A DNA stretch of 64,000 nucleotides from contig NZ_FMYV01000003.1 in assembly GCF_900102615.1 (NCBI RefSeq), positions 1 to 64,000 on the forward strand, in the 5' to 3' direction. Numbering within the stretch: position 1 is the first letter of the stretch; every line of letters begins with the position of its first letter. This stretch comes from Geotoga petraea. Its GTDB lineage: Bacteria; Thermotogota; Thermotogae; Petrotogales; Petrotogaceae. This document shows, piece by piece, positions 15,630 to 31,683 of this stretch. The position numbers and the translations under genes were made by a program. The notes beneath the pieces are model-generated. The model saw only the letters and a list, made by a program, of their open reading frames with translations, was not told the DNA's origin and ran no database searches.

Positions 15630-15668
15630 ATTATAATATAATTATCAATCTATGTCAAGGAGTGCTAA
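15630..15668 (-). promoter_or_regulatory. Consensus promoter with CIRCE operator for hsp20
   Basis: On the minus strand TTGACA (15658-15653), a 17-base spacer and TATAAT (15635-15630) form a perfect sigma-A promoter. The -35 lies within a CIRCE element: TTATCAATC (15642-15650), 9 bases, GAGTGCTAA (15660-15668). Against TTAGCACTC-N9-GAGTGCTAA this is 16 of 18 matches. CIRCE is the known HrcA site. Confidence 0.88.
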
Positions 15669-15793
15669 TATAATAAGAGAGCAAACAAAAACATTATAAT
15701 AAAAGTCGTAATATCAAAATAAATATAATTATAAAAATATATTTAATCAATCGTAACTAAATAATGATAAAAATGGAAAAAACAAAATAAAAA

Positions 15794-15810
15794 CCCCCTT
15801 TTAAAGGGGG
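15794..15810 (-). terminator. Terminator after the OsmC-family gene
   Basis: CCCCCTTT pairs with AAAGGGGG, and TTTTATTTTGTT follows on the minus strand. Confidence 0.75.
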
Positions 15811-15836
15811 AGAAGGGTCAGTATTTTAAGAATGTC

Positions 15837-16268
15837 TTATAAAGTTATGTTTACAGGTGTTGCGTTTGCTAAATTATCTGATACTGGACATCTGTTTTCA
15901 ACTTTTTCAATCCATGTTTTTAATGTAGCTTCGTCTGCATCTGTTTCAGGTTTCATTTTTACGTTTATTGCTTGGTATCCAGCTCTTTCTTCATCTGATT
16001 TACCCATAAATCTTGCTGGATTTAATTCTCCATCTAGTTCGATTTCTAAGCTTTTAATTTCAAAGCCCATTTCTTTAGCAACAACGTGACCTACAACGTT
16101 TAAACAACCAGATAAAGCAGCGAGAACATATTCAACTGGGTTTGCTCCGTGATCTGTTCCACCCAAATTAGCTGGTTCATCTATAATCATTTCAAAGTTT
16201 CTTGCTTTAACAACTGTTTTTGTTGGATTTTCTTTTGTTGCTTTTACATTTACTTGCATGTTTGGCAT
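15837..16268 (-). CDS. OsmC/Ohr-family peroxiredoxin-like protein
   Basis: A 143-residue OsmC-family protein. Two conserved cysteines are present: one in ALSGCLNVVG and one in ENRCPVSDNL. These form the thiol pair that reduces organic hydroperoxides in this family. The N-terminal strand and the NPVEYVLAALSGC helix match the fold. Ohr and the YhfA-type OsmC subfamilies differ in details that cannot be separated by eye, so I call it an OsmC-family thiol peroxidase. TAGGAGGTAT lies upstream of the ATG. It is monocistronic. It adds to the stress-protection genes of the window (hsp20, htpG, msrBA). Confidence 0.87.
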   Translation of the reverse strand: MPNMQVNVKATKENPTKTVVKARNFEMIIDEPANLGGTDHGANPVEYVLAALSGCLNVVGHVVAKEMGFEIKSLEIELDGELNPARFMGKSDEERAGYQAINVKMKPETDADEATLKTWIEKVENRCPVSDNLANATPVNITL

Positions 16269-16450
16269 AATAATACCTCCTAAAGTATTGTGAAATAATT
16301 TACTACTTACACCTACATTATATTATCTAAAGATTAATTAATAATTTCAAGAATATTCAAATTTAATAAAGTTTGGTTAACTGAAGAAATATCTAATTCA
16401 CAAGCTAAAATGTTATAATATTAACAAGTGTTATAAATGGAGGTGATTTT

Positions 16451-17083
16451 ATGAAATATAAAAATTATATATGGGATTTTGGCGGAACTCTTTTTGATAC
16501 TTATCCAGCTTTTTCAAAAAAAGTTGTTGAAATATTGAGAGATAAGAAGATTGAAGAAGACTATGAAACGATTTTAAAAATGGCTAAAAAGTCCAAAAGT
16601 CATCTAATAGATTATTTGAATGAGAAATACACTCTTAGTGATAGAGAGTTGAAATATATAAGGAAATGTGAAAAGTATACCTCTTTAAATTCAAGGAGTC
16701 CATTTGAAGGTATTGAAGAAATATTGAATTACATTATTTCAAATGGGGGCAAGAATTTTATCTATACACACAGAACATTTCATTCTGCTATGGAATTACT
16801 TTATCATTATAAAATGTTTGATTATTTTGAAGATATTGTTAGTAAAGATGTTGGTTTGGAAAGAAAACCTGATTCGGAAGGCTTTGAATATATAATTGAT
16901 AAGTATGATTTAGAAAAAAACAAAACCCTTTCAATTGGGGATAGGGTTATAGATGTTGAGTCTTCAAAAGGGGCGGGCTTACAAACAGCTTTTTTTGGAG
17001 AAGGAGTTGTTTCTGCGGATATAGTTTTTCAGGATTTTTCTGATTTTATGAAACTCATAAATGAAGGTGATTATAATGATTAA
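16451..17083 (+). CDS. HAD-superfamily hydrolase with altered motif I
   Basis: A 210-residue HAD subfamily IA protein of phosphoglycolate phosphatase-like length. Motif I is IWDFGGTLFDT: the nucleophile Asp9 is present, but the +2 residue, normally Asp (general acid/base), is Gly11. Motif II may lie around FIYTHRT, motif III Lys is in LERKPDS, and motif IV is IGDRVIDVESSKGAG. The cap region is helical. Loss of the second Asp usually slows phosphate-ester hydrolysis, and phosphonatases carry Ala there. GGAGGTGAT precedes the ATG. It overlaps the next gene by 8 nt. Confidence 0.82.
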   Translation: MKYKNYIWDFGGTLFDTYPAFSKKVVEILRDKKIEEDYETILKMAKKSKSHLIDYLNEKYTLSDRELKYIRKCEKYTSLNSRSPFEGIEEILNYIISNGGKNFIYTHRTFHSAMELLYHYKMFDYFEDIVSKDVGLERKPDSEGFEYIIDKYDLEKNKTLSIGDRVIDVESSKGAGLQTAFFGEGVVSADIVFQDFSDFMKLINEGDYND

Positions 17084-17789
17084 GAAAATTATTTTGTTAA
17101 CTGGAGCTGCACTTGGAATAGGTGTTTTGGGATTCTTAATTTGGGCAGGTAATCCACTTGGGCCAATGGAAGTAGTAGATGAAATAATTAATAGTTCAGA
17201 CATTGAAGTCGTTGAAGAAAAAGAATTATATAAAATAGGAGAGGACAATGAAGTGGGTTTGATATATTATCCAGGAGCAAGGGTCGATCCTAAATCATAT
17301 GTTCCTTTAGCTATAGAAATATCAAAAGAAAATATTACAATTTTTATTTCGAAGATGAGTTTTAATTTTGCTGTTTTTTCACCAAACAAAGCTTTGGAAA
17401 TAGTTGAAAGTAATCAAGATATAGACAAATGGTTTATTGCAGGACATTCCCTTGGTGGTGCAATGGCAGCAAAAGTTGTTTATGAAAATCCTGGGATATT
17501 TGAAGGATTAATTTTAAACGCATCTTATCCAGCAGAGAATAATTCTTTGAAAGATAAAAATGTGAGAGTTTTATCTATATACGCGGAATATGATGGTCTG
17601 GCTACAGTTGAAAAGATAGATAACAGCAAAGATTTTCTTCCTGAAGATACAAAATATGTTTTTGTTGAAGGTGGAAACCACGCTCAATTTGGTTATTATG
17701 GTCCTCAAAACGGCGATTTAGAAGCAGATATATCTAGAGAAGAGCAAAGAGATATTATAGCTAGAGAAATGATAAATTTTATTAAGTAG
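17076..17789 (+). CDS. Membrane-anchored alpha/beta hydrolase
   Basis: A 237-residue hydrolase beginning with a hydrophobic anchor (IILLTGAALGIGVLGFLIW, about 5-23). It has YYPGARV where the oxyanion loop should be, the nucleophile elbow AGHSLGGAMAA (Ser125), an acid in YAEYDGL and the histidine in EGGNHAQFGYYG. These features fit the PF12695-type alpha/beta hydrolases, probably on the outer face of the inner membrane. GAAGGTGA sets the ATG at 17076; an in-frame ATG at 17061 precedes that site. The start overlaps the HAD stop, so the pair is coupled. The stop codon is embedded in the same 15-base sequence as the DeoR stop at 8525. Confidence 0.8.
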   Translation: MIKKIILLTGAALGIGVLGFLIWAGNPLGPMEVVDEIINSSDIEVVEEKELYKIGEDNEVGLIYYPGARVDPKSYVPLAIEISKENITIFISKMSFNFAVFSPNKALEIVESNQDIDKWFIAGHSLGGAMAAKVVYENPGIFEGLILNASYPAENNSLKDKNVRVLSIYAEYDGLATVEKIDNSKDFLPEDTKYVFVEGGNHAQFGYYGPQNGDLEADISREEQRDIIAREMINFIK

Positions 17790-18490
17790 AAATCGAAGAT
17801 TTTGGTTGTTAGATGCCGGTTGTTAGTTGTTAGAAAAAAAGCAGTTTTTAAGAATGAACTAAACCAAAAACAAACAACTATCAACAAATAACAAAATAAA
17901 TTACTTTGTAATTTATTTTACTAGGACATACAATTTTTTAAACGCATTTCACAGCATTCTTTCAGATAAATTTTGTACTATAATTCTCAATAGTTCATCG
18001 CATCTATTTATTATTTTGGATGAAAAAACAAGTATTAAAGGGATAAAAGAATGTCACCCTGAGCATCGTCGAAGGGTCTGATTTTATAAATTTGCGAAGC
18101 AAATTAAAAAGGTTTTAGATTCTTCAGCTCCAAAAACCGTCGTTCAGAATGACATAATACCTAGTTATCTAATAATGTATTAATAAATGAAGAAATATAA
18201 AAAAGAAAAGTATTGGAGTTTTACTGAGTGAAACAGTTTTAAAATAAATTGCTTTGCAATTTATTTTGTTGTTAGTTGGATGATGGAGGTTGTTGGTTTT
18301 TGTATTATTTTAGACATTTAACAATGTTTTTTGCTTCCAACCATAAACCTTCAACAGAAATTGTGAAACAATTTCTACTTTATGACCTACTTTGAGTTTT
18401 TATATTTCGGAATTGAATTAAACTCTTTTAAAATGATAGATAAAAAACTATCAAACCTCCATCCTCCAACCAAGTGAATTGCCTTGGATT
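17785..18490. repeat. Modular hairpin repeat array downstream of the RND exporter
   Basis: No gene is seen here (about 700 bases). The order is: GTTGTTAG-rich module (17804-17876), a 12-bp hairpin with arm AAAATAAATTAC (17893-17919), a tract shared with 20702-20800, a TGTCA...TGACA element (18052-18154) containing AATTTGC/GCAAATT (18089-18105), the TATTGGAGTTTTACTGAG module, a 12-bp hairpin with arm AAAATAAATTGC (18241-18267), and an inverted module with AGAAATTGT/ACAATTTCT (18356-18376). The final 40 bases match those downstream of the other RND gene. Confidence 0.85.
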
Positions 18491-20656
18491 TTATTTTATC
18501 TTTCTCAATATCGTTGGTAATACAGATAAGCTTAGAAAAACTGCAGCTATCATGGAAACCCACATTAAAATAGAAATATACACATGTATTTTTAAAGGTG
18601 AAAAAAGCATAGAAGATACTCCGACTGCAAGTCCTAATGCATTTGCAATTATAGGTCTTGAAGTGTATTTATAAGCTTTGTTTGCAGCTTCTTCAGAATT
18701 TAATCCGCTTTCTTTGTAACTTTTCCAAACAGATGTGAAATGTACTGCATAATCTATCCCTACACCAAGAGTTATAGAAAATATTGTTGTAGTGATTAAA
18801 TTCAAAGATATTCCAGATAACCCCAAGAATCCAAAAAGAATTATTACTGTAGAGGCTATTGGAATGAGGGAAATTAATGCAGGGATAAATTTTTTCAACG
18901 ATATCCATAACAAAAATATTATAAGCCCAAAAGCTATAATCAGACTTCCAACTTGATTTTTTACCATATCTTTGTTTAAATCATACATATAATATTGAAC
19001 TCCAGAAAGACCTATTTCTACATTCTCATCATCATATTCTTCAGTGATTTCTTGTATTGTTTTCAAATCTTCATTTTTAAGACTATTCGGGAAAATAATA
19101 ACTCTCGCTACATTCGATTCTAAATCTAAAAAATTATCTATTGGATTAGATTCAAGTTGATTTATAAAAGTGTTTATAAGGTTTATTTGTAATTGGTTGG
19201 GGTATACAGTTTTATCTCTATTGTATATTTTTTGGTTTAAAATTGAATATATGTCATAAACACTCATAACTTTGTTAACAGAGTCGGTTTCTAAAAGATC
19301 TTTTTCATAGTTTAATATTTTATCGGCGTTATCTTTTGAAAGTATAGTATTATCCGCTTTTAAAAGAGCGAATACAGGAACACTTCCTCCATTTATTTCA
19401 ACAAATTTATTAAAACTTTTATAAATATCCGTATTTTCTCTATAAACCATCAATAAATTAAATTCATTTTGTATTTTAGGGAATAGTATCACTGAAACTA
19501 TAATTAAAACTATTAAAATTGCTAAAGATCTTTTGCCCCACAACCTTTTTATGAAAGAATTTACACCTGTTTTGGATTTTTTTAGTTTTTTTAATTTTAT
19601 TTTACCTGTTAATATAACTGGTAGTATTAGCCAGGTAGCTATTCCAGCAAATGCGATTCCAATTGATGAAAATATGGCTAAGTTATTAACAGCTTTTATA
19701 TTCATAAACAACAATGCCATAAAGCCTGCTATGGATGTAATTGTAGTAATGATCATAGGTATGCCGACCATTTTTAATGTGTGAGAAATGCTATCCAATT
19801 TGTTGTATCCTTCACTTCTAGATTCTTGAATGTGAGATACAAAATGAAGTCCATCAGCGCTCCCTATAACTATGGTAAAAATAGGAGCTAGAACAGTTAT
19901 AAGAGAAACATTTCCCTCTATAACTCCAATTAGTCCGAGAGTCCAAACTGCTGCAACACCAGCTGGTAGAATAGCTAAAAATGTTGATTTTAAACTACCC
20001 ATCTTTATTCTGAAAACAAAAAAGATCAAGAAAAAGGCAGCAGGCGGTAGAAAATACAATATCCAAGTTACATAATCACCTATTTTTTGCTGCATATACA
20101 AATCTCCACTAGCGTAGTAATTATAATTATTCTCAGATAAAAATCCCTCTATTTCTTTTATTTGTTTTAATACAAAACCATCTTTTGGAAAAATTGTATA
20201 AATGGCGTATATTTTATCATCTTTTTTCACTAGAGGCGATAAAGCTGGATAGCTATTGTAATATTCAACAATTTGGGGTAGATCATTTTCGTTTATATTT
20301 GAAATGTTTTTTAATGTTGTTCCGATAGGAATTTGATCTGGAGCTGGTCCGTTAATAGCTCTTATATTGGATATGCCCTCCAGTTTATTTTGTATTTGTA
20401 TCATTTTTTGAAAAATATCCATAGTTAATGTTTTCTTTTCAAACTCAACCATTATAGAAACTTGCTCAGTTGCTGGAAAATATTTTTCCATTTTTTTTTG
20501 ATTGTCTTCGTATTCTGAGCCTTCTACTCTAAAAATATTGAAATCATTCGCAACTTCTATTTGGTTAATACCCAAAATAGCTAGCAATACAGCTAAGATT
20601 AAAAAAATAATTAATGCAACTCTATTTTTAGCAACAAAATTGGTATATTTATTCAT
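18491..20656 (-). CDS. RND/MMPL-family exporter, copy 2
   Basis: A 721-residue inner-membrane exporter of the RND superfamily in its MMPL/Patched-like form, driven by the proton gradient. The two halves each contain one transmembrane segment (about 14-34 and 374-394), a large periplasmic loop, and a block of five more segments. The conserved TM4 and TM10 motifs are IGSADGLHF and GVGIDYAVHF, holding the membrane aspartates. These proteins typically move lipids or hydrophobic compounds; the substrate is unknown. It is a full-length paralogue of the gene at 21375 and lies downstream of it, separated only by a repeat array. No periplasmic adaptor or outer-membrane channel gene is nearby. Confidence 0.9.
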   Translation of the reverse strand: MNKYTNFVAKNRVALIIFLILAVLLAILGINQIEVANDFNIFRVEGSEYEDNQKKMEKYFPATEQVSIMVEFEKKTLTMDIFQKMIQIQNKLEGISNIRAINGPAPDQIPIGTTLKNISNINENDLPQIVEYYNSYPALSPLVKKDDKIYAIYTIFPKDGFVLKQIKEIEGFLSENNYNYYASGDLYMQQKIGDYVTWILYFLPPAAFFLIFFVFRIKMGSLKSTFLAILPAGVAAVWTLGLIGVIEGNVSLITVLAPIFTIVIGSADGLHFVSHIQESRSEGYNKLDSISHTLKMVGIPMIITTITSIAGFMALLFMNIKAVNNLAIFSSIGIAFAGIATWLILPVILTGKIKLKKLKKSKTGVNSFIKRLWGKRSLAILIVLIIVSVILFPKIQNEFNLLMVYRENTDIYKSFNKFVEINGGSVPVFALLKADNTILSKDNADKILNYEKDLLETDSVNKVMSVYDIYSILNQKIYNRDKTVYPNQLQINLINTFINQLESNPIDNFLDLESNVARVIIFPNSLKNEDLKTIQEITEEYDDENVEIGLSGVQYYMYDLNKDMVKNQVGSLIIAFGLIIFLLWISLKKFIPALISLIPIASTVIILFGFLGLSGISLNLITTTIFSITLGVGIDYAVHFTSVWKSYKESGLNSEEAANKAYKYTSRPIIANALGLAVGVSSMLFSPLKIHVYISILMWVSMIAAVFLSLSVLPTILRKIK

Positions 20657-20699
20657 TAATCTTTCCCACCCTTGTTTTTATTAATTATATTATATCATT

Positions 20700-21374
20700 A
20701 TAAAAACATACAATTTTTTTAACGCATTTTTATACGGGTACCCACAAGGGGCACCCCTACATATAATTTGTACTATAATTCTCAATAGTTCATCGCATCA
20801 ATTTATTTATTTTTGATAGAAAGCTAAACAAATGTCATCCTGAGCGAACGAAGTGAGTCGTAAGGATCTAATCAGTCAATTTTCGAAGAAAATTTAAAAG
20901 GTTTTATATTCTTCAGCTCCAAAAACCGTCGTTCAGAATGACAAGATACTTAACTATCTAATAATGTATTAAATAATGAAGAAATATAAAAAAGAAAAGT
21001 ATTGGAGTTTTACTGAGTGAAACAATATAAAAATTGATGTTGAAAAACACGGATGTTTTTCATGCGAATTTATCCATGGATGGATAATATGAGCAGTACA
21101 TCAATTTTATTGTTGAACGAGGGTTAAAAAACGACCTACTTTGAATTTTTATATTTCGAAATTGTTTTATTATAAAGTTCCTAAACTCCTCGTCAGCTTT
21201 GCTGCCAATCCTCTAAAACATTTAGAGGATAACCAAATTTTGCAAAGCAAAATTAACTGATGAGATCCTTCGGTTCGTCACTTTGTGACTCTCTCAGGAT
21301 GACATATACAAAGGTTTTCAGCATTATTGTCTTTTCCAACATCCATCCTCTAATCAAGTGAATTGCTTTGCAAT
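20700..21374. repeat. Modular hairpin repeat array between the two RND genes
   Basis: No gene is seen. The array contains a TGTCA...TGACA element (20833-20943) with AATTTTC/GAAAATT (20878-20894), the TATTGGAGTTTTACTGAG module, and the three-way-junction module (outer arms 21030-21040/21098-21108, inner hairpins 21042-21061 and 21070-21087). Inverted copies of the 8523-8670 modules follow, with hairpins CAGC/GCTG (21194-21204), ATCCTCTAAA/TTTAGAGGAT (21208-21230), AATTTTGC/GCAAAATT (21236-21254), GTCAC/GTGAC (21277-21289) and AATTGC/GCAATT (21361-21375). An AT-poor patch at 20740-20760 has GTACC-rich sequence not shared with the other arrays. Confidence 0.85.
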
Positions 21375-23546
21375 TTATTTCAATTTCCTCAATATAGTTG
21401 GTAGAACTGAAAGACTCAAAAATACAGCTGTTATCATTGATACCCACATCATTGTTGAAACATAAACGTGGATTTGTAGAGGTGATAACAACATAGCTGA
21501 CAGTCCAATTGCCAGACCAAATGCATTTGCAATTATTGGTCTAGATGTATATTTATATGCTTTATCTGCAGCTTCTTCTGAAGTAAACCCTTTTTCTTTG
21601 TAACCTTTCCATACTGAGGTAAAATGAACAGCGTAGTCTATTCCAACCCCAAGAGTTATTGAGAATATCGTTGTTGTGATGAGGTTTAAAGATATTCCAG
21701 ATATGGCTAAAAATCCAAAAAGAATTATAACTGTAGATACTATTGGTATTAAAGAAATTAGCGCTGGGATTATTTTTTTCAATGTGATAAATAACAATAA
21801 TAGTATTAAACTAAAAGCTATTATTAAACTACCAGTTTGATTTTTTATCATGCTTTGGTTGAGATCATACATTAAATACTGAACACCGGTTACGTCAATG
21901 TTTATATTACTATCTCTTTCAAACTTATTAGTAATTTGTTGTATTGTTTTTAAATCTGCGTTTTTTAATGATTTTGGAAAAATTATCATTCTTGAGGTAT
22001 TTGAATTTTCTGCCAAAAAATTGTTTACAGGATTTGTTGGGGCTTGTTTCAAGACGTTATTAATTAACATGATTTGTAATTGATTGTTTGGATATTCAGG
22101 TTGTTTTTTGCCGAATAATCTTTGATTTAGTGCGGAGTAAAGGTCATAAACACTCATTGTTTTGCTTACTGCTTCTTTTTCTTCGAGTTCTTTTTGATAG
22201 TTGAGTATTATTTTCGCGTTTTCGCTAGATAATATATTGCTTTCTGTTTTTATGAGTCCAAATACAGGAACACTTCCTCCGTTTATTTCCATGAATTTAT
22301 CGAAACTTTTGTATATATCAGTGTAACTTCTATAAACCATAAGAAGATTGAATTCATTTTTTAGGTTAGGAATAAAAATTATAGAGATAAATAAGAGTGC
22401 AAAAAGAATTATAATAGATTTTTTGCCCCATAATTTTTTTATACCTGTAGATAGACTTTTTTCTTTTTCTTTATGAGTTTTAATTTTTATCTTTCCTGTT
22501 AATATCAAAGGAAGGATATACCAAGTTGCTATCCCAGCAAAACCTATTCCAATTGATGCGAAAATAGCTAAGTTATTTATTGCTTCTGTGTTCATAAACA
22601 TTAGAGATATGAACCCAGCTATAGAAGTTATTGTTGTTACTATCATTGGAATTCCTACCATTTTTAATGTGTGAGTAATGGCAGATAATCTATCATAACC
22701 CTCATTTTTAGCTTCTTGTATATGAGAGATGAAGTGTAGTCCGTCAGCACTACCAATCACTATAGTGAATATGGGAGCTAAGACAGTCACTATGGAAACT
22801 TCTCCACCGAACCAACCAATCAATCCAAGTGTCCATATAGCACCAATTCCAGCTGGAAGAACTGCCAGTATTGTAGCTTTTATGTTTCCCATTTTTATTC
22901 TAAAAACAAGAAATATTAAGAAAAAAGCAGCTGGAGGTAGAAAAGATAAGATCATTTTTACATAATCACCTATTTTTTGTTGCATGTATAAATCCCCAGT
23001 TGCGTAGTATTTATAATTATTCTCTATTAAAAAATTTTCTATTTTATTTATCTCTTCTAACCCAAAACTATCTCCAGGAAAAATGTTGTATATTCCATAA
23101 ATTTTCCCTTCTTTTTGTACTAAGGGAGACATAGCAGAAAGAGTATTATAGTATTCTTTTAATTTATTGATATTATTTTTATTTATATTAGAAATATCTG
23201 TTAATGATCCATCTAATGGGATTTTTTCTGGAGCAGGACCATTTAAAGCTTTAATATTTTCTACTGTTTCAATGTTTGACTGTATTTTAGCCATTTGATT
23301 AAAAATCTCAATATTTAACGAGTTAGATTCAAATTCAACCATAAAAGATATTTGTTCTGTTGTGGAAAAGTATTTTTCCATTTCATTCATGGTTTCTTCA
23401 TATTGAGAACCTTCAACTTTGAATATGTTGAAATCATTTCCCACTTTTATTTGTCTAACTCCCAGTAATGAGAAAATAATTGTAATTATGAAAATTATAG
23501 TTAAAATCAACCTGTTTTTATTCACGAATTCAACGTATTTATTCAT
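21375..23546 (-). CDS. RND/MMPL-family exporter, copy 1
   Basis: A 723-residue exporter matching copy 2 over its whole length, with the same two-half design and the same IGSADGLHF and GVGIDYAVHF membrane motifs. Signature stretches such as GDLYMQQKIGDYV and FKVEGSQYEE align directly with copy 2. The ATG at 23546 has AAGGAGTG 8 nt upstream; an in-frame GTG at 23555 lies inside that site. The start overlaps the TetR stop by 8 nt (ATGAATAA), so regulator and exporter are translationally coupled. Expression should be repressed by that TetR protein and induced by a ligand, probably a transported hydrophobic molecule. Confidence 0.9.
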   Translation of the reverse strand: MNKYVEFVNKNRLILTIIFIITIIFSLLGVRQIKVGNDFNIFKVEGSQYEETMNEMEKYFSTTEQISFMVEFESNSLNIEIFNQMAKIQSNIETVENIKALNGPAPEKIPLDGSLTDISNINKNNINKLKEYYNTLSAMSPLVQKEGKIYGIYNIFPGDSFGLEEINKIENFLIENNYKYYATGDLYMQQKIGDYVKMILSFLPPAAFFLIFLVFRIKMGNIKATILAVLPAGIGAIWTLGLIGWFGGEVSIVTVLAPIFTIVIGSADGLHFISHIQEAKNEGYDRLSAITHTLKMVGIPMIVTTITSIAGFISLMFMNTEAINNLAIFASIGIGFAGIATWYILPLILTGKIKIKTHKEKEKSLSTGIKKLWGKKSIIILFALLFISIIFIPNLKNEFNLLMVYRSYTDIYKSFDKFMEINGGSVPVFGLIKTESNILSSENAKIILNYQKELEEKEAVSKTMSVYDLYSALNQRLFGKKQPEYPNNQLQIMLINNVLKQAPTNPVNNFLAENSNTSRMIIFPKSLKNADLKTIQQITNKFERDSNINIDVTGVQYLMYDLNQSMIKNQTGSLIIAFSLILLLLFITLKKIIPALISLIPIVSTVIILFGFLAISGISLNLITTTIFSITLGVGIDYAVHFTSVWKGYKEKGFTSEEAADKAYKYTSRPIIANAFGLAIGLSAMLLSPLQIHVYVSTMMWVSMITAVFLSLSVLPTILRKLK

Positions 23547-24159
23547 TTTTATCACTCCTTAATCCGTCTAATACTGTTTCTACAATTTTTTCCATTTCTA
23601 TTTCTATGGTTTCTGGTTTAACTTTTTTTTCAATAGTTGCTTTTTCTATAACAGTGTAAATCAAAACACCGAATGTTAATTTTCTAATTATATTGTTATC
23701 TACATTTTTAAATTCCCCGGTTTTTTTACCCAATTCAAAAATAAAATTACTAAATTTTTCCATTTCTTTCCATATATTGTCTAGAAAAAATATTCTTATC
23801 TCTTCATTTACCATCATTTCTTGTAGTATTATTTTTATAATAGGGAAATTTTTTGCTATAAAACTACTTCTTTCTTTAAGAACTTCTTTTAAAAGTTTTT
23901 CTATACTTTGGTCTTTGTGTTTTTTTATTAGAGTTGGAAGAATTTCTTCTGTTGAATATTTTTTGAATTTTTTTATCATTTCTTTTAATATAGATTTTAG
24001 TAAATCTTTTTTGGAATTAAAATATTTAAAAATAGTTGCCTCTGATACTTCTGAACACTCAGCTATAGATTTAGTTGAGGTGTTATCATACCCTTTTTTA
24101 TAAATTAAATCTATTGTACAATCTATTATTTTTTGCTTAGTTCTATCACTTTTTTTCAT
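23539..24159 (-). CDS. TetR-family repressor of the RND operon
   Basis: A 206-residue TetR/AcrR-type repressor. The N-terminal helix-turn-helix spans about 8-55, with the typical GYDNTSTKSIAECSEVSEATIFKYFNSKKDLL. The C-terminal helical ligand domain is lineage-specific. AGAGGTGAT precedes the ATG. It is the first gene of a TetR-RND unit, and a palindromic operator overlaps its own start region (24184-24202), so autoregulation is likely. The ligand is unknown. Confidence 0.92.
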   Translation of the reverse strand: MKKSDRTKQKIIDCTIDLIYKKGYDNTSTKSIAECSEVSEATIFKYFNSKKDLLKSILKEMIKKFKKYSTEEILPTLIKKHKDQSIEKLLKEVLKERSSFIAKNFPIIKIILQEMMVNEEIRIFFLDNIWKEMEKFSNFIFELGKKTGEFKNVDNNIIRKLTFGVLIYTVIEKATIEKKVKPETIEIEMEKIVETVLDGLRSDKNE

Positions 24160-24182
24160 TTTATCACCTCTTTTTAATAAAT

Positions 24183-24233
24183 AAGTGATTAATCACTCAC
24201 TTTTATAATACACCTTTTTATTTTTTATTGCAA
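24183..24233 (-). promoter_or_regulatory. Promoter and TetR operator of the RND operon
   Basis: On the minus strand TTGCAA (24233-24228), 17 bases, TATTAT (24210-24205). Just downstream lies the 14-base palindrome AGTGATTAATCACT (24184-24197), with a further TCACTT half at 24197-24202. Its position across the transcription start fits repression by the TetR protein encoded next. Confidence 0.75.
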
Positions 24234-24291
24234 TATATTTCATTTGAAATCTATTTTTTTGATAAAATAGACTGAAGGGGGAATTTGATTA

Positions 24292-25278: not shown

Positions 25279-25287
25279 GGTGTTAAC

Positions 25288-25914
25288 ATGGTTGAACTTA
25301 GAAATATTCACTTATCTTTTGATGACACAGTTTTGTTCGATGGATTCAATTTGAAAGTTCAACAAAGAGAAAAAGTTTTGATATATGGGAAATCTGGGAT
25401 TGGAAAATCCAGCATTATGAAGATGATTTTGGGGTTTGTTGAGCCAGATAAAGGAAATGTTTTATACAAAGGTAAAGAATTGGATAAAAACACAGTATGG
25501 GGTTTGAGAGAAAATACAGCTTTTGTAACTCAGGATAATGATATAACCGGAGGGTTAGTTAAAGATTTTATTTCTGAGGTTATGGGGTATAAGGCTAATA
25601 AAAATATAGAAATTTCTAAAGATAAAATAGTGGAGTTATTAGAATATTTTGATTTGGAAAGCAAAATTCTGGAAAAGGATTTTCAAGATTTATCTGGGGG
25701 AGAAAAACAGAGAATATCTATTATTGTTTCGATTTTATTGGATAAGGAATTGTATTTGTTGGATGAGATAACTTCTTCTCTGGACAACAAAATGAAGAAA
25801 AAGGTTGTTGACTACTTTGTAGATGAGATGGATAAAACACAAATAATCATTTCGCATGACAATCATTGGTTGGAAAAAGATAAGCTGAGAATAATCAATT
25901 TGGAGGAATTATAA
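25288..25914 (+). CDS. fetA: ABC transporter ATP-binding protein, FetA (YbbL)-like
   Basis: A 208-residue ABC ATPase. The Walker A motif GKSGIGKSS is at 34-42, the Q-loop is in TQDND, the signature is LSGGEKQR, Walker B is LYLLDEITSSLD, and the switch His is in ISHD. The small size and the FetB partner immediately downstream identify it as the FetA/YbbL type, linked in E. coli to iron export and resistance to oxidative stress. AGGTGTTAAC precedes the ATG. Its TAA overlaps the next ATG by one base (TAATG). Confidence 0.85.
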   Translation: MVELRNIHLSFDDTVLFDGFNLKVQQREKVLIYGKSGIGKSSIMKMILGFVEPDKGNVLYKGKELDKNTVWGLRENTAFVTQDNDITGGLVKDFISEVMGYKANKNIEISKDKIVELLEYFDLESKILEKDFQDLSGGEKQRISIIVSILLDKELYLLDEITSSLDNKMKKKVVDYFVDEMDKTQIIISHDNHWLEKDKLRIINLEEL

Positions 25915-26699
25915 TGGAGACAGTTGATATTAGTAATACTGCATTGTTGTTTGCTTATTTGCTTTTGATTGTTCCAGTTGCTATTTCTTATTTTTTGAAA
26001 TTGGATATTATAAAAAACATATTTATATCTGTTTTTAGAATGTCAACTCAGCTTTTTATCATGGCGATTATCCTTGAATATCTCTTTACTTGGAATATAA
26101 AAATATTGAACATAGTTTGGCTAATGTTTATGATAGGTTTCGCTGCTTTTTCGGTTGTAAGAGAATCAAATTTAAAGTTAAAAAAATTTATTGTCCCGGT
26201 TTTTTCTTCTATGATTCTGGCCAATATAGCAGTTTTACTATATTTCAATTATTTTATTTTGAGTTTGGGGGATGTGCTGCAGGCAAGACATTTTGTGGTT
26301 ATAGGTGGAATGCTTCTTGGGAACGCCCTTAGAGGAAATATTATTGGAATAGGCAGTTTTTATAAATCAATAGAGAGGAATAAAAATAGATATTTGTTTG
26401 CTCTGGGAAATGGAGCGAGTATTTATGAAGCCATTTTCCCATATTTTAAAGATTCTTTTACACAGGCTATCAAACCAACAGTCGCCAGCATGGCTACTAT
26501 AGGGGTTGTGTTTTTGCCTGGTATGATGACAGGGCAAATTCTTGGTGGATCTGATCCTTCTACAGCAATTAAGTATCAGATAGCCATTATGCTTGCAATA
26601 TTTTTATCTGTCACTTTGTCAGTTTTGTTCACCATTTTGCTAACTGTAAAATCTAGTTTTGATAATTACGGTGTTTTGAAAAAAGATATTTTCAAATAA
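25914..26699 (+). CDS. fetB: ABC permease, FetB/UPF0014 family
   Basis: A 261-residue integral membrane protein with about seven hydrophobic segments. The conserved UPF0014 stretches are visible: GGMLLGNALRGN, SFYKSIERNKNRY, LGNGASIYEA and GVVFLPGMMTGQILGG. With the FetA-like ATPase it should form a complete iron exporter in the inner membrane. Substrate assignment rests on family knowledge only. The start is translationally coupled to fetA. Confidence 0.9.
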   Translation: METVDISNTALLFAYLLLIVPVAISYFLKLDIIKNIFISVFRMSTQLFIMAIILEYLFTWNIKILNIVWLMFMIGFAAFSVVRESNLKLKKFIVPVFSSMILANIAVLLYFNYFILSLGDVLQARHFVVIGGMLLGNALRGNIIGIGSFYKSIERNKNRYLFALGNGASIYEAIFPYFKDSFTQAIKPTVASMATIGVVFLPGMMTGQILGGSDPSTAIKYQIAIMLAIFLSVTLSVLFTILLTVKSSFDNYGVLKKDIFK

Positions 26700-26704
26700 T
26701 AAAA

Positions 26705-26728
26705 GAGCGTATCTATGAAGATACGCTC
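26705..26728. terminator. Terminator between fetB and a convergent gene
   Basis: Arms GAGCGTATCT and AGATACGCTC with loop ATGA. The T-rich tail (TTTTATTATTT) is on the minus strand; on the plus strand the tail is weak. Confidence 0.75.
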
Positions 26729-26752
26729 ACACCTAATAATTTTCACATATAC

Positions 26753-27121
26753 CTAAGAAAGAAAAACGGGCTTTCCCATATAATTGTATAAAGGAACATC
26801 TAAAATCATACTGTTTCCATCTATTATAACCTCTAAATCTTCGTCTAAACTAAAATATCTACCTTTTTTATCTTCTAAAACGATTTCTTTATCTTCTAAT
26901 TCTTCTATTTTGTTAAATAGTTCACTTTTTTTAAAACATTTAAAAAGATTGTTTTCTGATAAAACGATGTAATCATCTTCGACTCTTACCTGATCGGGGC
27001 AAATAAAACATTCGTTGTCATTTACTCCGTCATGACAGTCAGTCAAAACAAAATGAACTGTAAAATCGTTATCAGAAACAAAATTTTCTTTCAAATAGAT
27101 CATGAAGTCACTTTTTTTCAT
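26753..27121 (-). CDS. Hypothetical acidic protein, 122 aa
   Basis: I do not recognise this protein. It is acidic and has four cysteines, three in its first half (TDCHDG, ECFICPDQ) and one in LFKCFKKS. The first three could form a metal or redox site. There is no signal peptide or membrane segment. A good promoter (27173-27202) and a downstream terminator make it a single-gene transcript. GAGGGGGAATAT lies before the ATG. Length and composition suggest a small binding or regulatory protein, but nothing stronger can be said. Confidence 0.6.
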   Translation of the reverse strand: MKKSDFMIYLKENFVSDNDFTVHFVLTDCHDGVNDNECFICPDQVRVEDDYIVLSENNLFKCFKKSELFNKIEELEDKEIVLEDKKGRYFSLDEDLEVIIDGNSMILDVPLYNYMGKPVFLS

Positions 27122-27172
27122 ATATATTCCCCCTCACTATTTTTTTGTGAATAAAATAACTTAATTTCAATT

Positions 27173-27202
27173 ACATTATATAACAAAAAATGACTTTGTG
27201 TC
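27173..27202 (-). promoter_or_regulatory. Promoter of the 122-aa hypothetical gene
   Basis: Minus-strand TTGACA (27202-27197), an 18-base spacer and TATAAT (27178-27173), 52 bases before the start codon. Confidence 0.75.
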
Positions 27203-27388
27203 AAATTTAACAAGAGGGAGAAAAAACCGCTTAATCACAAATAATTTCTTTTAAACAGATATAATTAATTATAAAATATATTTTAGTTAAAAACATCACA
27301 ATTATAAAAACAACTTATAAACATTTTCTTATAAATTGGTAAAATAAAATTTTTAAAAAAGTGGTATAATATTGAAGAGGTGATTATT

Positions 27389-27961
27389 ATGATGGATTCA
27401 GTTAATCCAGAATTATCTAATCCATATTTAGGTTACGGATTGGATCCAGGTGAAAGAGGACTTTCTCTATCTTCTCCTGCATCTATGAGTATTATGAGAG
27501 TAGCTTCTCATGAAGCCAGAAATATAGCACAATTTAAAAATAAAGCCGCCCAAGAAGGTGGAACAGTTTTATATACAGATATAGATTTAACTTTTAGAAA
27601 AAGAGGAAGTTATTTAGCAGCTGTTGCAGGCAAATCAACTGCAGTTGTATTGTATAGAAAAGATGCAGAAGAAGCAAGGAATATAGATAATTACATGGTT
27701 TCTTCTCAGACTCAGAAAAGAGATCCCTTTAGCATTGAGGGAGAAGATGAACAAGAAAATAAAATCAATTCAAATAGTTCAGGACAAAATGTCGAAGAAC
27801 AAATTAAGAACATAGAAAATAAATTAAGAATCGAAAATGACCCGGAGAAAAGAGAGGAATTGGAACAGAAATTAGAATTATATAAGTTATTGAAGAATTT
27901 TTCTAACTCAGGTCTTTCAGCAGATTTTGCAAATGGAATAAACATAAATTTTTCAGCTTAA
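27389..27961 (+). CDS. Conserved-looking hypothetical protein, 190 aa
   Basis: Not firmly recognised. The middle block, about residues 40-90 (SHEARNIAQFKNKAAQ followed by TDIDLTFRKRGSYLAAVAGKST), recalls the SprA-like and flagella-associated putative metalloprotease families. However, the second histidine of their HExxH-type motif is absent, so catalysis is doubtful. The C-terminal third is a charged coiled-coil-like region (VEEQIKNIENKLR, REELEQKLELYK). No signal peptide is visible. GAAGAGGTGA sets the ATG at 27389 (a second ATG follows at once). A TATAAT lies at 27365-27370. It is monocistronic. Confidence 0.6.
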   Translation: MMDSVNPELSNPYLGYGLDPGERGLSLSSPASMSIMRVASHEARNIAQFKNKAAQEGGTVLYTDIDLTFRKRGSYLAAVAGKSTAVVLYRKDAEEARNIDNYMVSSQTQKRDPFSIEGEDEQENKINSNSSGQNVEEQIKNIENKLRIENDPEKREELEQKLELYKLLKNFSNSGLSADFANGININFSA

Positions 27962-27980
27962 ACCAATTTGGTTTAAGCTG
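27954..27980. terminator. Bidirectional terminator
   Basis: CAGCTTAAACC pairs with GGTTTAAGCTG around AATTT, followed by AATTTTTTT on the plus strand. It overlaps the end of the upstream gene. Confidence 0.85.
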
Positions 27981-27987
27981 AATTTTT

Positions 27988-28695
27988 TTAAACTTTCATA
28001 TAGGCAACTTTTGGTTCAAAATTGAATTTTTTGATTTCAAGTTTGTTGAATCCACCAAATTTTTCGAATATTGCCTTTGTTTCTCCAGGCCAAAGCTTGT
28101 TGTTGACTTCGTCGAAAACCACAATTCCACCTTTAACAACTCTTGGAAATAGGTATTTTAAAGCTATCTTTGTTGGGTTATATAGATCAAAATCTAAAAA
28201 AAGCAGTGATATTGTTAGTTGGGGGTTTTTTTCAACATATTCAGGTATGGTTTTTATGGCGTCTCCTTTAACAAGTTCAATCTTTTGGAAATTACCAAGA
28301 TATCTATTATCATCATAATTTTTTATTAATTCTTCAAGCTCTTTTTTTACATCGAAATTTGGGTTTAATGCTTTTTCTTTGAGGTTTCTATTTTTCCATT
28401 CTGATGCGTCTTCATCATGAATGTTTGGGAATCCTTCAAATGTATCGAAGCCTATTATGTTTCTGTATAGAGCGTATGGCTCCAAAATTGTAGAAAGTTT
28501 TGCCCAAGCCATAACTCCTCCGCCATGGTATACTCCGCATTCAATAATATCTCCCTTAACATCTTTAATCATTTTAAATAGTTCGTATCTGGCTAAAAAT
28601 CTTGATATAGCTTGTCTTGGGACAAACTTTTCAAAGTTATCCATTTTTTTATTGAAAGTCCCTCCAAAAGTATTGAATATTTCTTCTGTGTTCAT
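27988..28695 (-). CDS. TylF-type SAM-dependent methyltransferase
   Basis: A 235-residue class I methyltransferase of the TylF/macrocin O-methyltransferase family. Motif I is GDIIECGVYHGGGVMAWAK. The acidic metal and active-site region is LLFLDFDLYNPTKIAL followed by GGIVVFDEVN, typical of Mg-dependent TylF members, and IGFDTFEGFP is the adjoining conserved block. Substrates of this family are sugars of antibiotics or polysaccharides; the substrate here is unknown. AAAGGAGTTTTT precedes the ATG. It lies 14 nt downstream of the yedK gene and may share its transcript. Confidence 0.83.
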   Translation of the reverse strand: MNTEEIFNTFGGTFNKKMDNFEKFVPRQAISRFLARYELFKMIKDVKGDIIECGVYHGGGVMAWAKLSTILEPYALYRNIIGFDTFEGFPNIHDEDASEWKNRNLKEKALNPNFDVKKELEELIKNYDDNRYLGNFQKIELVKGDAIKTIPEYVEKNPQLTISLLFLDFDLYNPTKIALKYLFPRVVKGGIVVFDEVNNKLWPGETKAIFEKFGGFNKLEIKKFNFEPKVAYMKV

Positions 28696-28709
28696 TATTA
28701 AAAACTCCT

Positions 28710-29393
28710 TTAAAATATTTTGTTTTCCTTTTCAGGTATCAAATTTTGTTTTGAGTCGTTTTTTGGTGAATTCACCATTTTACTAACTTGGTATAACTCA
28801 ATTTCCTCACTTTTTCTGGAAGTAAGCAGGTTTTTGACATATTCAAAGTCATTTTCAAAATTGATCCACTTTTTTGTTTGATTTTTATCCAAAATTACTG
28901 GCATTCTATCATGTATTTGAGAGACTTTTTCGTTTGGTTGGGTGGTTATTATAGTGCATGAAAAAATTTGATTGTCTTCCTCGTCTTTCCAAATATCATA
29001 CAACCCCGCAAATGAAAATGGCTGGTCATTCTTTAGCTTTATATAATAAGGTGTTTTCTGGTTCCCTTCTCTTTTCCATTCGTAAAAACCATTGGATATT
29101 ATTCCACATCTTCTATTTTTTAACAAGGGTTTGTAAGACTTCTTTTGTTCCAAAGTTTCTGCTCTTGCATTTATCATCTTATATCCTATTGATGGATCCT
29201 TTGCCCAAAAAGGGATCAAACCCCATCTAAATTCATTCAAAATTGTTTTTTTATCTGTTTCATAAATAGAAATTACCTTGTTGCTTGGTGTGATGTTGTA
29301 ACTTGGAGTATAATCCTCTATAAGAGTGATGTCTATATCAAAATCTTTTATTATATCTTCCAATGGTATGTATGTTACAAACCTCCCGCACAT
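28710..29393 (-). CDS. yedK: SOS response-associated peptidase/abasic-site shield (YedK/HMCES)
   Basis: A 227-residue SRAP-family protein that crosslinks to abasic sites in single-stranded DNA. The catalytic Cys2 follows the initiator Met (MCGRF), which decides the start at 29393. The open frame extends 30 codons further upstream, but AGGGGTGAT sits just before this ATG. Other conserved residues are visible: PSYNITPS, RWGLIPFWAKD, INARAE, the Glu of NGFYEWKR and the His of IHDRMPVIL. Length is normal for the family. It protects stalled forks and is self-reversing by family knowledge. Confidence 0.95.
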   Translation of the reverse strand: MCGRFVTYIPLEDIIKDFDIDITLIEDYTPSYNITPSNKVISIYETDKKTILNEFRWGLIPFWAKDPSIGYKMINARAETLEQKKSYKPLLKNRRCGIISNGFYEWKREGNQKTPYYIKLKNDQPFSFAGLYDIWKDEEDNQIFSCTIITTQPNEKVSQIHDRMPVILDKNQTKKWINFENDFEYVKNLLTSRKSEEIELYQVSKMVNSPKNDSKQNLIPEKENKIF

Positions 29394-29628
29394 TTTAATC
29401 ACCCCTTTCGATAATTTCTTCAATAAATTATACCAAATTAAATAGTTCAAAATTTTCTCATTGACATAAAATATTAAACACAAAGAAATTATAACTTAAA
29501 AAATGATTGCTAAAATAATATTGATAATAATAGTCGGGATTAAATTATCCCATAATTATTTAAAAAAATCAACCCCTTCAAAAATCCCATATAGATTATT
29601 AAGAGTTTTAAATATGTGCTGCTGCTAA

Positions 29629-29660
29629 TATCCCGTGGAATTCCACGGGATATTTTTTAA
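29629..29660 (+). terminator. Orphan plus-strand intrinsic terminator
   Basis: A 26-base perfect palindrome (29629-29654, arm ATATCCCGTGGAA) is followed by TTTTTTAATAATTTTT on the plus strand only. Both flanking genes (yedK, htpG) are on the minus strand, so it ends no known gene. The region 29394-29628 (about 235 bases) holds no gene and could encode a small RNA. Confidence 0.7.
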
Positions 29661-29679
29661 TAATTTTTGTCAAAATAAA

Positions 29680-29713
29680 AACCTCCAAAGTGAAAATGAA
29701 AATACTTTGGAGG
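29680..29713 (-). terminator. htpG terminator
   Basis: CCTCCAAAGT and ACTTTGGAGG pair around a 12-base loop, with TTTTTATTTT following on the minus strand. Confidence 0.85.
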
Positions 29714-29737
29714 TAATGAAAAATATTTATTTTTTGA

Positions 29738-31609
29738 TTAACTCATTAATTTATTTATTTTTTCTACAAAATCGGAAGGATTTTCAATTTTCATACCTTC
29801 CATTAGTAAAGCTTGATTGTAGAGAATGTCTGCATAGTCTTTCAAAAGATCTGATTCTGGATTTTCATCATATATGTTTTTAACTTTTTTGAATACTTGG
29901 TGATCTGGGTTAAGTTCCAATATTTTTTCTGCGTTGAAAGGCATTTGATCTAACTCTTTTAGAACTTTTTCCATGTTTATGGACATTCCTTCGTGAGCAC
30001 TTACTATACAAACTGGAGATTTTTTGAGTTTGTCTGTCAATCTAACTTCTTTAACTTTTCCAGATAGCAACTCTTTTATTTTACCCAACAAGTCTTTATT
30101 TTCTTCTTCTTCTTTTTTCTTTTCTTCTGTATCTTTTAGTTTTAAATCAGAAGAACTTATAGATTTGAACTGTTTGCCTTTGTAGTCGTGAAGCATTTGA
30201 ATCAAAAATTCATCTATATGATCTGTTAGGTATAATACATCAAAACCTTTTTCTTTAACTGCTTCCATTTGTGGTAAGTTGTCTATGCTATCTCTTGACT
30301 CTCCAACAGCGTAATATATGTATGCTTCTTGGTCTTTTTTCATATTTTCTATGTATTCATCAAGAGTTATAGGTTTTTCTGAGTTTGAAGTTTCGAATAG
30401 CAGTAGATCCATAACTTTGTCTTTTTTATCCACGTTTTCATATAACCCAGCTTTCATACCTCTTCCAAATTCGTTCCAGAATTCTTGGTACTTTTCTCTG
30501 TCGTTATTTATTTTTGATTTAAGTGCCTGGTGAATTTTCTTTTCAATATTTTTTTTCATGACTTTTATATTTTTTGAATGTTGTAAAATTTCTCTTGATA
30601 TGTTTAGTGTGAAGTCTGGAGAATCTACTAATCCTTTGACAAAAGAAAAGTATGAAGGTATCAATTCTTCGTATTTATCCATGATAAATACATTTTTAGA
30701 ATAAAGGCTTAAACCTCTCTTATATTCTTTTGTGTAGTAGTCAAAAGGAGCCCTTGCTGGTATGAATAACAATGATGTGAATTCAACTGTTGAACCTTCT
30801 GCTTTAAAATGGATTACATCAAAAGGATCTGTCCAGTCATGATATGTTTCTTTGTAAAATTCACTGTATTCTTCTTCTGCGATATCATCTTTATTCTTTC
30901 TCCATAGGGATTCCATAGAGTTGATTGTTTTTATTTCTTTTTGTTCTTTTCCGTCTTCATCAGTTTCTGTTACTTCCATTTTTATTGGATATCTTATGTA
31001 GTTTGAATATTTTCTGACTAGCTCTTCTAATTTTTCTTTTTTGGCAAAATTATCTTCATCTTCCAAATCCTTCCTCAAATGAAGAGTAATTTTTGTTCCC
31101 CTATTCTTTTTTTCTATATATTCGATTTCATATTCTCCAGAACCGTCTGATTCCCATTTAACTCCATTATCTTCATTCCACTTTTTTGTTTCTACAGTGA
31201 CTTTGTCAGCTACCATGAAAGCTGAGTAGAATCCAACTCCAAATTGCCCTATCATCTCAAGTGTTTCTTGATCGGACTTTTCGTTTTTTAACTGTTCCAT
31301 AAAAGCTTTTGTCCCTGATTTTGCAATTGTTCCAAGGTTTTCAACAACATCATCATAAGACATACCTATACCGTTATCTTCGATTATTATTTTCTTGTTT
31401 TTTTCATCAGCATCTATAAATATTTTAAAAACTGTATCGTTTTCTAATATTTCCGGGTCCTTGAGAGATTCAAATTTCATTTTATCAATGGCATCTGATG
31501 CGTTAGATATCAACTCTCTTAAAAATATTTCTTTATGAGTATATATAGAGTTGATCATAAGATTCAGCAACTGTTTTGTTTCAGTTTGAAACTGTTTTTT
31601 TTCTGGCAT
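29738..31609 (-). CDS. htpG: Chaperone HtpG (Hsp90)
   Basis: A 623-residue bacterial Hsp90, an ATP-dependent cytoplasmic chaperone. The N-terminal GHKL ATPase shows LRELISNASDAIDK, DNGIGM and GQFGVGFYSAF. The middle domain has LYSKNVFIMD, FVKGLVDSPD and LNISREILQ. The C-terminal dimerisation domain ends after ALLMEG. Length is normal. AGGAGGATG lies 7 nt before the ATG. It is monocistronic with its own terminator, and its promoter carries a CIRCE-like element, suggesting HrcA control together with hsp20. Confidence 0.97.
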   Translation of the reverse strand: MPEKKQFQTETKQLLNLMINSIYTHKEIFLRELISNASDAIDKMKFESLKDPEILENDTVFKIFIDADEKNKKIIIEDNGIGMSYDDVVENLGTIAKSGTKAFMEQLKNEKSDQETLEMIGQFGVGFYSAFMVADKVTVETKKWNEDNGVKWESDGSGEYEIEYIEKKNRGTKITLHLRKDLEDEDNFAKKEKLEELVRKYSNYIRYPIKMEVTETDEDGKEQKEIKTINSMESLWRKNKDDIAEEEYSEFYKETYHDWTDPFDVIHFKAEGSTVEFTSLLFIPARAPFDYYTKEYKRGLSLYSKNVFIMDKYEELIPSYFSFVKGLVDSPDFTLNISREILQHSKNIKVMKKNIEKKIHQALKSKINNDREKYQEFWNEFGRGMKAGLYENVDKKDKVMDLLLFETSNSEKPITLDEYIENMKKDQEAYIYYAVGESRDSIDNLPQMEAVKEKGFDVLYLTDHIDEFLIQMLHDYKGKQFKSISSSDLKLKDTEEKKKEEEENKDLLGKIKELLSGKVKEVRLTDKLKKSPVCIVSAHEGMSINMEKVLKELDQMPFNAEKILELNPDHQVFKKVKNIYDENPESDLLKDYADILYNQALLMEGMKIENPSDFVEKINKLMS

Positions 31610-31627
31610 TCAAATCATCCTCCTTTT

Positions 31628-31683
31628 TTATCACTCTTTAGTTAAGATTGCCAATTTATAATAATTATATCATTTGAAGTCAA
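31628..31683 (-). promoter_or_regulatory. Promoter and CIRCE-like operator of htpG
   Basis: Minus-strand TTGACT (31683-31678), 17 bases, TATAAA (31660-31655). Immediately downstream is TTATCACTC (31628-31636), 9 bases, GATTGCCAA (31646-31654), which matches CIRCE at 15 of 18 positions. The operator would cover the transcription start. Confidence 0.75.

Follow-up and report, generated by a model that had tools for sequence, protein, structure and literature searches.

The DNA examined here is a stretch of 64,000 nucleotides from Geotoga petraea (contig NZ_FMYV01000003.1, positions 1 to 64,000), called the window below. It encodes two heat-shock proteins, Hsp20 and HtpG, and the gene for each is preceded by an inverted repeat resembling the controlling inverted repeat of chaperone expression (CIRCE), the operator of the repressor HrcA. 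HrcA/CIRCE is a textbook local repressor system that acts at the core promoter. We describe these two promoter sites, the regulon to which they point, and a second, weaker CIRCE-like element that lies well upstream of hsp20 and recurs upstream of dnaK across most of the Thermotogae. Genomes, genera, families and loci carry our labels G, g, f and L; f1 is the window's family, which we take to be Petrotogaceae, and g6 is presumably Petrotoga. The features of the two loci, all on the minus strand, are as follows.

15135-15563, minus strand: hsp20, small heat-shock protein of 142 aa (Pfam HSP20, E 1.7e-24)
15630-15635, minus strand: -10 TATAAT of hsp20 (12/12 promoter match, 17-nt spacer)
15642-15668, minus strand: proximal CIRCE of hsp20, TTAGCACTC-N9-GATTGATAA, 16/18 matches (2 mismatches; pattern search)
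15653-15658, minus strand: -35 TTGACA of hsp20, within the CIRCE spacer (promoter scan; full promoter 15658-15630)
15720-15770, minus strand: whole distal module, aligned to model R1 (positions 1-51), a model derived solely from dnaK upstreams (17.7 bits)
15744-15770, minus strand: distal CIRCE-like inverted repeat, TTATCATTA-N9-GATTGATTA, 12/18 matches (upstream scan and relatives)
15794-15810, minus strand: terminator-like hairpin of osmC, dividing osmC from the hsp20 regulatory region
15837-16268, minus strand: osmC, the gene upstream of hsp20
29738-31609, minus strand: htpG, Hsp90 of 623 aa (NCBIfam HtpG NF003555, 740 bits against a cut-off of 371)
31628-31654, minus strand: CIRCE-like operator of htpG, TTGGCAATC-N9-GAGTGATAA, 15/18 matches (3 mismatches; pattern search)
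31655-31660, minus strand: -10-like TATAAA of htpG, abutting the operator (read by eye; it ends in A and was hence not listed by the scanner)
31678-31683, minus strand: -35-like TTGACT of htpG, 17-nt spacer (read by eye)

Both promoter sites lie where a preliminary description of this DNA had put them. At hsp20, the promoter scan and the pattern search recovered the TTGACA-N17-TATAAT promoter and the 16/18 CIRCE around its -35, and at htpG the pattern search returned the 15/18 CIRCE-like site directly after a -10 that we read by eye. The placement of TTGACA inside the CIRCE spacer of hsp20 is found again in G004, G001, G007, G011 and G050. Conservation upstream of orthologues, on which the description had made its proposal depend, was found: the proximal CIRCE of hsp20 is kept in g1, g2, g5, g8 and f10 but not in g3, g4, g6 and g7, and the htpG site is kept in some genera but not in g3. 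The gene htpG itself was present in 14 of the 61 genomes searched, all of them in the window's family and none in g6; a first sequence search for htpG relatives had also returned 23 loci of other groups (best identity 51%), which were left out. Of the 14 genes, seven carry a site of their own that scores 13/18 or better and lies no more than 400 bp away, some of these genes having long leaders. Two others (g8) sit behind hsp20 and share the CIRCE of hsp20, whose spacer here too contains TTGACA, and the remaining five, all from g3, have no site. In total, htpG is under CIRCE in 9/14 cases, and the link is both family-specific and patchy.

The preliminary description had proposed that these sites belong to a wider HrcA regulon, and had suggested a genome search for CIRCE and the location of hrcA. 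We searched the genome (2,166,325 bases in 17 contigs) for 9-9-9 inverted repeats with at most three mismatches to TTAGCACTC-N9-GAGTGCTAA, using the reversed pattern as a control. Exactly five sites were found and none with the control pattern. The window alone held two matches, where 100 shuffled versions averaged 0.02, and a chance origin of both window sites is rejected on the strength of the shuffles and the reversed-pattern control. All five sites precede chaperone operons: hsp20, htpG, groES-groEL, hrcA-grpE-dnaJ, and a 45-codon frame followed by clpB. We also located hrcA, which scores over the cut-off of PF01628. Its product falls below the cut-off of the TIGR00331 equivalog (175.5 against 197.2) and aligns at 8.9e-40, closely in the helix-turn-helix region, with PDB entry 1STZ, which we take to be the HrcA of T. 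maritima.

The same search across the family (21 genomes, including that of the window) gave 62 sites, compared with 8 for the control pattern. Among the 57 sites in the 20 relatives, 54 lie just upstream of chaperone operons (groES 20, hrcA 18, clpB 9, hsp20 3, htpG 2, and hsp20-htpG 2), the exceptions being L131, L134 and L145. The presence of hrcA and the placement of these sites bear out a wider regulon, to which clpB can be added; what did not hold up is that hsp20 is peculiar to this lineage. A new extension is seen in htpG, although its membership is patchy. In other families of the class, hsp20 lies directly downstream of dnaK in 10 loci that have both genes in view, as a dnaK-hsp20 operon, so the regulon membership of hsp20 is old. 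In silico, the evidence is good for an HrcA regulon comprising groESL, hrcA-grpE-dnaJ, hsp20, htpG and clpB. For the window's family this defines a compact predicted set (GroESL, HrcA-GrpE-DnaJ, Hsp20, HtpG and ClpB), with the family-specific htpG inside it.

Several observations at individual members of this set may be recorded here. In most members of the family the Shine-Dalgarno sequence (GGAGTGATAA, directly ahead of the start) falls within the right arm of the CIRCE at hrcA, for example at L003:1501-1530, so this operator overlaps the ribosome site. Between CIRCE and clpB there is a short acidic frame, of 45 codons in the genome of the window (L006:1559-1696) and a different short one in G004 (L209), which is possibly a leader peptide. 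In f8 and f11, too, CIRCE sites of 15-17/18 stand before genes for Clp ATPases (L404, L407, L408, L412, and L411, which is divergent to an rsmH-like gene), which would extend HrcA control of clpB-type genes well beyond the window's family. A 17/18 CIRCE in f10 stands before a gene for a protein with an N-terminal membrane segment (L413 in G079:C5, with TTGACA in the spacer, and L409 in G080:C6), a possible non-chaperone target of HrcA. Finally, in the genus of T. maritima, a 16/18 CIRCE precedes a frame whose translation reads as a KaiC-like ATPase, about 3.6 kb from dnaK (L402, G096:C1), and model matches near dnaK similar to this one occur in G093, G097 and G098.

The preliminary description did not mention the distal repeat at 15744-15770, a degenerate 9-9-9 element that lies 102 bp above the proximal CIRCE of hsp20 and 135 bp from its -10, between the osmC terminator and the promoter. 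Upstream scans of hsp20 first showed such a weaker repeat, some 102 bp higher than the CIRCE, in G000, G004, G001 and G050. We found that for free-standing hsp20 genes outside g6 the element lies at 134-137 bp in 15/15 loci with a correctly placed promoter (136 bp in G016, measured by hand). The spacing between the proximal and distal sites is exactly 103 bp in six hsp20 genes of f10, which were found by following 20 further model matches in the class, and 102-105 bp in f1 and G050. The htpG gene of the window has no distal element, the next best upstream score being 9.

In g6 the hsp20 promoter is of a different kind. It resembles a promoter for an extracytoplasmic function (ECF) sigma factor (TTGAAC, then GTCATA), and the distance from the element to the start of its TTGAAC is 111 bp in 6/7 genes; in the seventh (G017) it is 101 bp, which is 10 bp or about one helical turn shorter. 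In g6, both hsp20 and clpB have promoters that resemble the ECF sigma-E type (TTGAACTTTTTT..GTCTAA, TTGAACCT..CGTCATAA), and those of dnaK are mixed (TTGAAC..TATAAT); the loci compared were L076, L078-L081, L099 and L245 for hsp20, L222-L227 for clpB and L270-L276 for dnaK. Given the CIRCE-like sites around these promoters, this suggests that an ECF sigma factor and HrcA jointly control them in g6.

The dnaK gene of the window's genome (C1:451402-453126) has no promoter CIRCE and carries a CIRCE-like repeat 133 bp above its -10. We searched 102 Thermotogae genomes for dnaK and matched it in 100 (none was found in G042 and G045), and 98 upstream regions were analysed, G037 and G099 being dropped at contig ends. 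A site of at least 11/18 lies 132-136 bp above the dnaK -10 in 83/98 genomes, compared with 13/1078 control windows. Because this count takes the best site at 130-138 bp, which narrows the spread, we repeated it without that limit: the best CIRCE score anywhere from 46 to 250 bp above the -10 lands at 132-136 bp in 82/98, compared with 2.4% expected, and the genus-averaged score has a single clear peak at 134 (8.46 against 4.67, z 8.3). With G006 and G101 added, whose promoters were placed by hand or by the model, the module is present at dnaK in 85/98 genomes and 33/37 genera.

The distance is held to the promoter and not to the gene. The standard deviation of the offset from the module to the dnaK -10 is 0.69, compared with 14.9 for the distance from the -10 to the start codon (range 25-94), and the distance to the -35 is exactly 111 bp in 63/83. 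In G006, where the leader is several hundred bp longer and the module lies 510 bp before dnaK, the TATAAT is still 135 bp away; in G008 the promoter was set by hand to a TATAAT at -67. Where dnaK also has a proximal site, the pair is 99-104 bp apart (11 genomes), and over all dual-site promoters of dnaK and hsp20 the spacing is 99-105 bp. The distal site thus keeps a constant helical phase, as expected of the second operator in a repression loop.

An alignment of 32 genus representatives needs no gaps and reads TTATCAnTC-N9-GATTGCTAT; about 24 further conserved bases come next, with ATT as the last three. The module, including the inverted repeat, is 52 bp long, and its positions C5, A6, G23, T2, T25 and T48 are invariant across the 32 genera. 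The 9-9-9 dyad geometry with conserved arms is present, with dyad matches of 0.66 compared with 0.15-0.28 on shifted axes, a difference that is partly built in since the distal sites were chosen by their CIRCE score. Arm-to-arm covariation was considered as proof of a dimer site and rejected, being only slightly above shuffles (0.660 against 0.617; 32 genera, 3/2000). Over the 54 bp beyond the module there is hardly any conservation, identity being 0.37 compared with 0.32 after shuffling.

We then asked where a model built from dnaK upstreams finds matches. In family genomes, the dnaK upstreams rank first, followed by hsp20 and clpB. In the genome of the window, the order is dnaK (E 2.6e-7), clpB (3.5e-4), htpG (0.007), the distal site of hsp20 (0.009) and groES (0.04), and then background; the matches at clpB, groES and htpG are to their promoter CIRCEs. 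Searched against the window alone, the distal module of hsp20 has an E of 2.6e-4. Apart from the matches at clpB sites, the module is restricted to dnaK and hsp20. A remote element common to all HrcA promoters was ruled out, since in 40 groES and hrcA promoters the 300 bp upstream held no further site scoring better than 12/18 (the best score was 12 in one promoter and 9-11 in the others).

At dnaK the module is missing in g15 (f4), g18 (f7), and g24 and g31 (f10). Only g24 and g31 have a CIRCE of 16-17/18 around the dnaK -35 in its place. The sole genus lacking hrcA is g18, in both of its genomes, and the one readable dnaK upstream of this genus is without the module. The HrcA of G092 equals 1STZ over 338 residues, and the dnaK of G092 carries the element (12/18 at 135 bp), which makes T. 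maritima a suitable organism for a test.

How might these sites work? From the sites, their placement, the hrcA gene and the conservation, we infer that HrcA dimers would bind the CIRCE overlapping the hsp20 -35 and the CIRCE just after the htpG -10, blocking RNA polymerase, and that heat would inactivate HrcA and so free both promoters. Heat release of HrcA goes through GroEL. At hsp20 and dnaK, where the second, weaker 9-9-9 repeat lies about 111 bp above the -35 and always on one helical face, HrcA would bind the distal repeat as well and contact either HrcA at the promoter or RNA polymerase through a short DNA loop of about 103 bp; this we infer from the module, its distance and its restriction to dnaK and hsp20. 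Such a loop would strengthen repression where a promoter CIRCE exists, and at dnaK, which mostly lacks a promoter CIRCE in the class, the distal repeat would supply the sole HrcA control. We put the probability of the whole explanation, an HrcA-repressed regulon including hsp20 and htpG together with a remote HrcA site at hsp20 and dnaK, at roughly 0.7. Its parts differ in strength. HrcA is probably the protein that binds the distal element, given the CIRCE geometry, the constant pairing with promoter CIRCEs and the use at chaperone genes only. Repression by looping is a more tentative suggestion, and we would be just as cautious about the general form of the proposal, namely that the HrcA of Thermotogae might use a dedicated weak remote operator on one helical face about 111 bp above the -35 and repress dnaK and hsp20 by short-range looping.

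A number of findings weigh against this explanation. The distal copy in the window is weak when taken alone (E 0.009 genome-wide, with a composition bias of 10.1 bits); the claim for it is carried by its position and by the relatives. It also has more than the three mismatches allowed for a CIRCE (12/18, the range at dnaK being mostly 11-16), so we class it as CIRCE-like. HrcA alone does not account for the roughly 24 conserved bp that lie beyond the repeat. Where dnaK has no promoter CIRCE, the loop has no evident partner, and to our knowledge the HrcA of T. maritima is described only as a dimer. A 10.5-bp A/T periodicity that might ease looping is not significant (150/500 shuffles reach the value), and phased A/T tracts as a loop aid were dropped; there is, however, a strong periodicity at 11.5-13 bp (reached by 0-1 of 500 shuffles). 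The distribution of the module does not follow that of hrcA throughout: g15 has hrcA and no module, and G071 and G100 have the module and no detected hrcA, in assemblies that are 81% and 94% complete. In f10, g24 and g31 are without the module at dnaK, though some carry one at a free-standing hsp20.

Some of these findings could be accommodated if the proximal sites are HrcA operators and the distal module is bound by a different protein, such as a heat-shock activator touching RNA polymerase from a fixed face, with its likeness to CIRCE due to descent or coincidence. The module is degenerate as a CIRCE, its conservation continues for about 24 bp beyond the repeat (mean pairwise identity 0.57 against 0.39 shuffled), it persists at promoters without CIRCE (most dnaK genes) and with an ECF-like promoter (hsp20 of g6), and its rigid distance would suit contact between an activator and the polymerase. 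Nevertheless, it shares the 9-9-9 geometry and the invariant C5-A6 and G23 of CIRCE, its dyad is well above that on shifted axes even if the choice of sites contributes to this, and the model built from dnaK also finds the promoter CIRCEs of clpB, groES and htpG. We regard this alternative as less likely. Far less probable is a reading of the distal repeat as an upstream promoter (TTATCA-N18-TATACA, in many cases with a TG preceding the -10) that is covered by a CIRCE-like operator and yields a longer second transcript of dnaK or hsp20. The right arm does often read TGCTATA or TGATATA, an extended -10, and CIRCE often overlaps the promoter in the window's family, but several genera end the right arm in TGCTTAAC or TGCTAATC, which are poor -10s, and two promoters need no fixed distance, yet 132-136 bp is held across sequence that is itself barely conserved. 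Finally, a view in which HrcA acts on groESL and hrcA only, and the sites at htpG and hsp20 arose by chance or survive as relics, is very improbable: the htpG site is only 15/18 and the g3 relatives have none, but 0.02 matches were expected in the window, no genomic site lies away from a chaperone operon, and the placement is conserved in related genera.

As in class I HrcA/CIRCE regulation (e.g. B. subtilis), TTAGCACTC-N9-GAGTGCTAA lies over chaperone promoters, hrcA is present, and groES and hrcA form the core; the differences are that the regulon adds hsp20, htpG and clpB, and that dnaK has a remote degenerate site and none at its promoter. Work by Pysz from 2004 is said to have placed CIRCE in T. 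maritima before hrcA and groES only. CIRCE at hsp20 and htpG enlarges a known regulon. Loops of the LacI/GalR type pair a strong operator at the promoter with a weak one some 90-115 bp upstream of it on the same helical face, and the layout here, with a strong promoter site and a weak upstream site on the same face, is the same. We know of no HrcA DNA loop. Our literature search found no paper joining HrcA with DNA looping and, within the open-access literature, neither a report of any CIRCE-like element held remotely in phase with a promoter nor one of a remote CIRCE in Thermotogae.

In the delta-proteobacteria, groESL is reported as the sole constant member of the HrcA regulon (PMC545781). 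Two CIRCE elements are reported upstream of hrcA in Lactobacillus plantarum (PMC3842655); as here, two operators precede one heat-shock operon, though that pair is at hrcA, whereas the pairs described here are at hsp20 and dnaK and consist of one strong and one weak site about 103 bp apart. In Campylobacter jejuni and Helicobacter pylori, HspR bound far upstream is reported to cooperate with HrcA at the core promoter (PMC7464140). The upstream sites in that case are HspR-associated inverted repeats (HAIR), separated from the HrcA sites by 27 and 11 bp, in contrast to the CIRCE geometry and the distance of about 103 bp seen here.

The occurrence of a remote, phase-locked element at dnaK and hsp20 throughout the class points to HrcA action at a distance, or else to an unknown partner, and offers a testable answer to how dnaK is controlled in Thermotoga. 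If the proposal is true, the remote operator would explain HrcA control of dnaK genes without a promoter CIRCE, including that of T. maritima; the ancestor of the class would already have had the arrangement, and proximal and distal operators would have been lost and regained independently.

Two further observations concern other sequences. A repeat containing GGGTCCAGGGCGGAGCCCTC or a variant of it lies in the leaders or upstream regions of htpG, dnaK, clpB or hsp20 genes (L035, L268, L214 in G006, and L240 in G016), where it lengthens the 5' untranslated regions; it is perhaps a small mobile element. Within the window, two similar large membrane proteins, which by eye resemble the resistance-nodulation-division (RND)/MMPL type, are encoded in tandem at 18491-20656 and 21375-23555, and a TetR-like gene (23539-24159) adjoins the pair.

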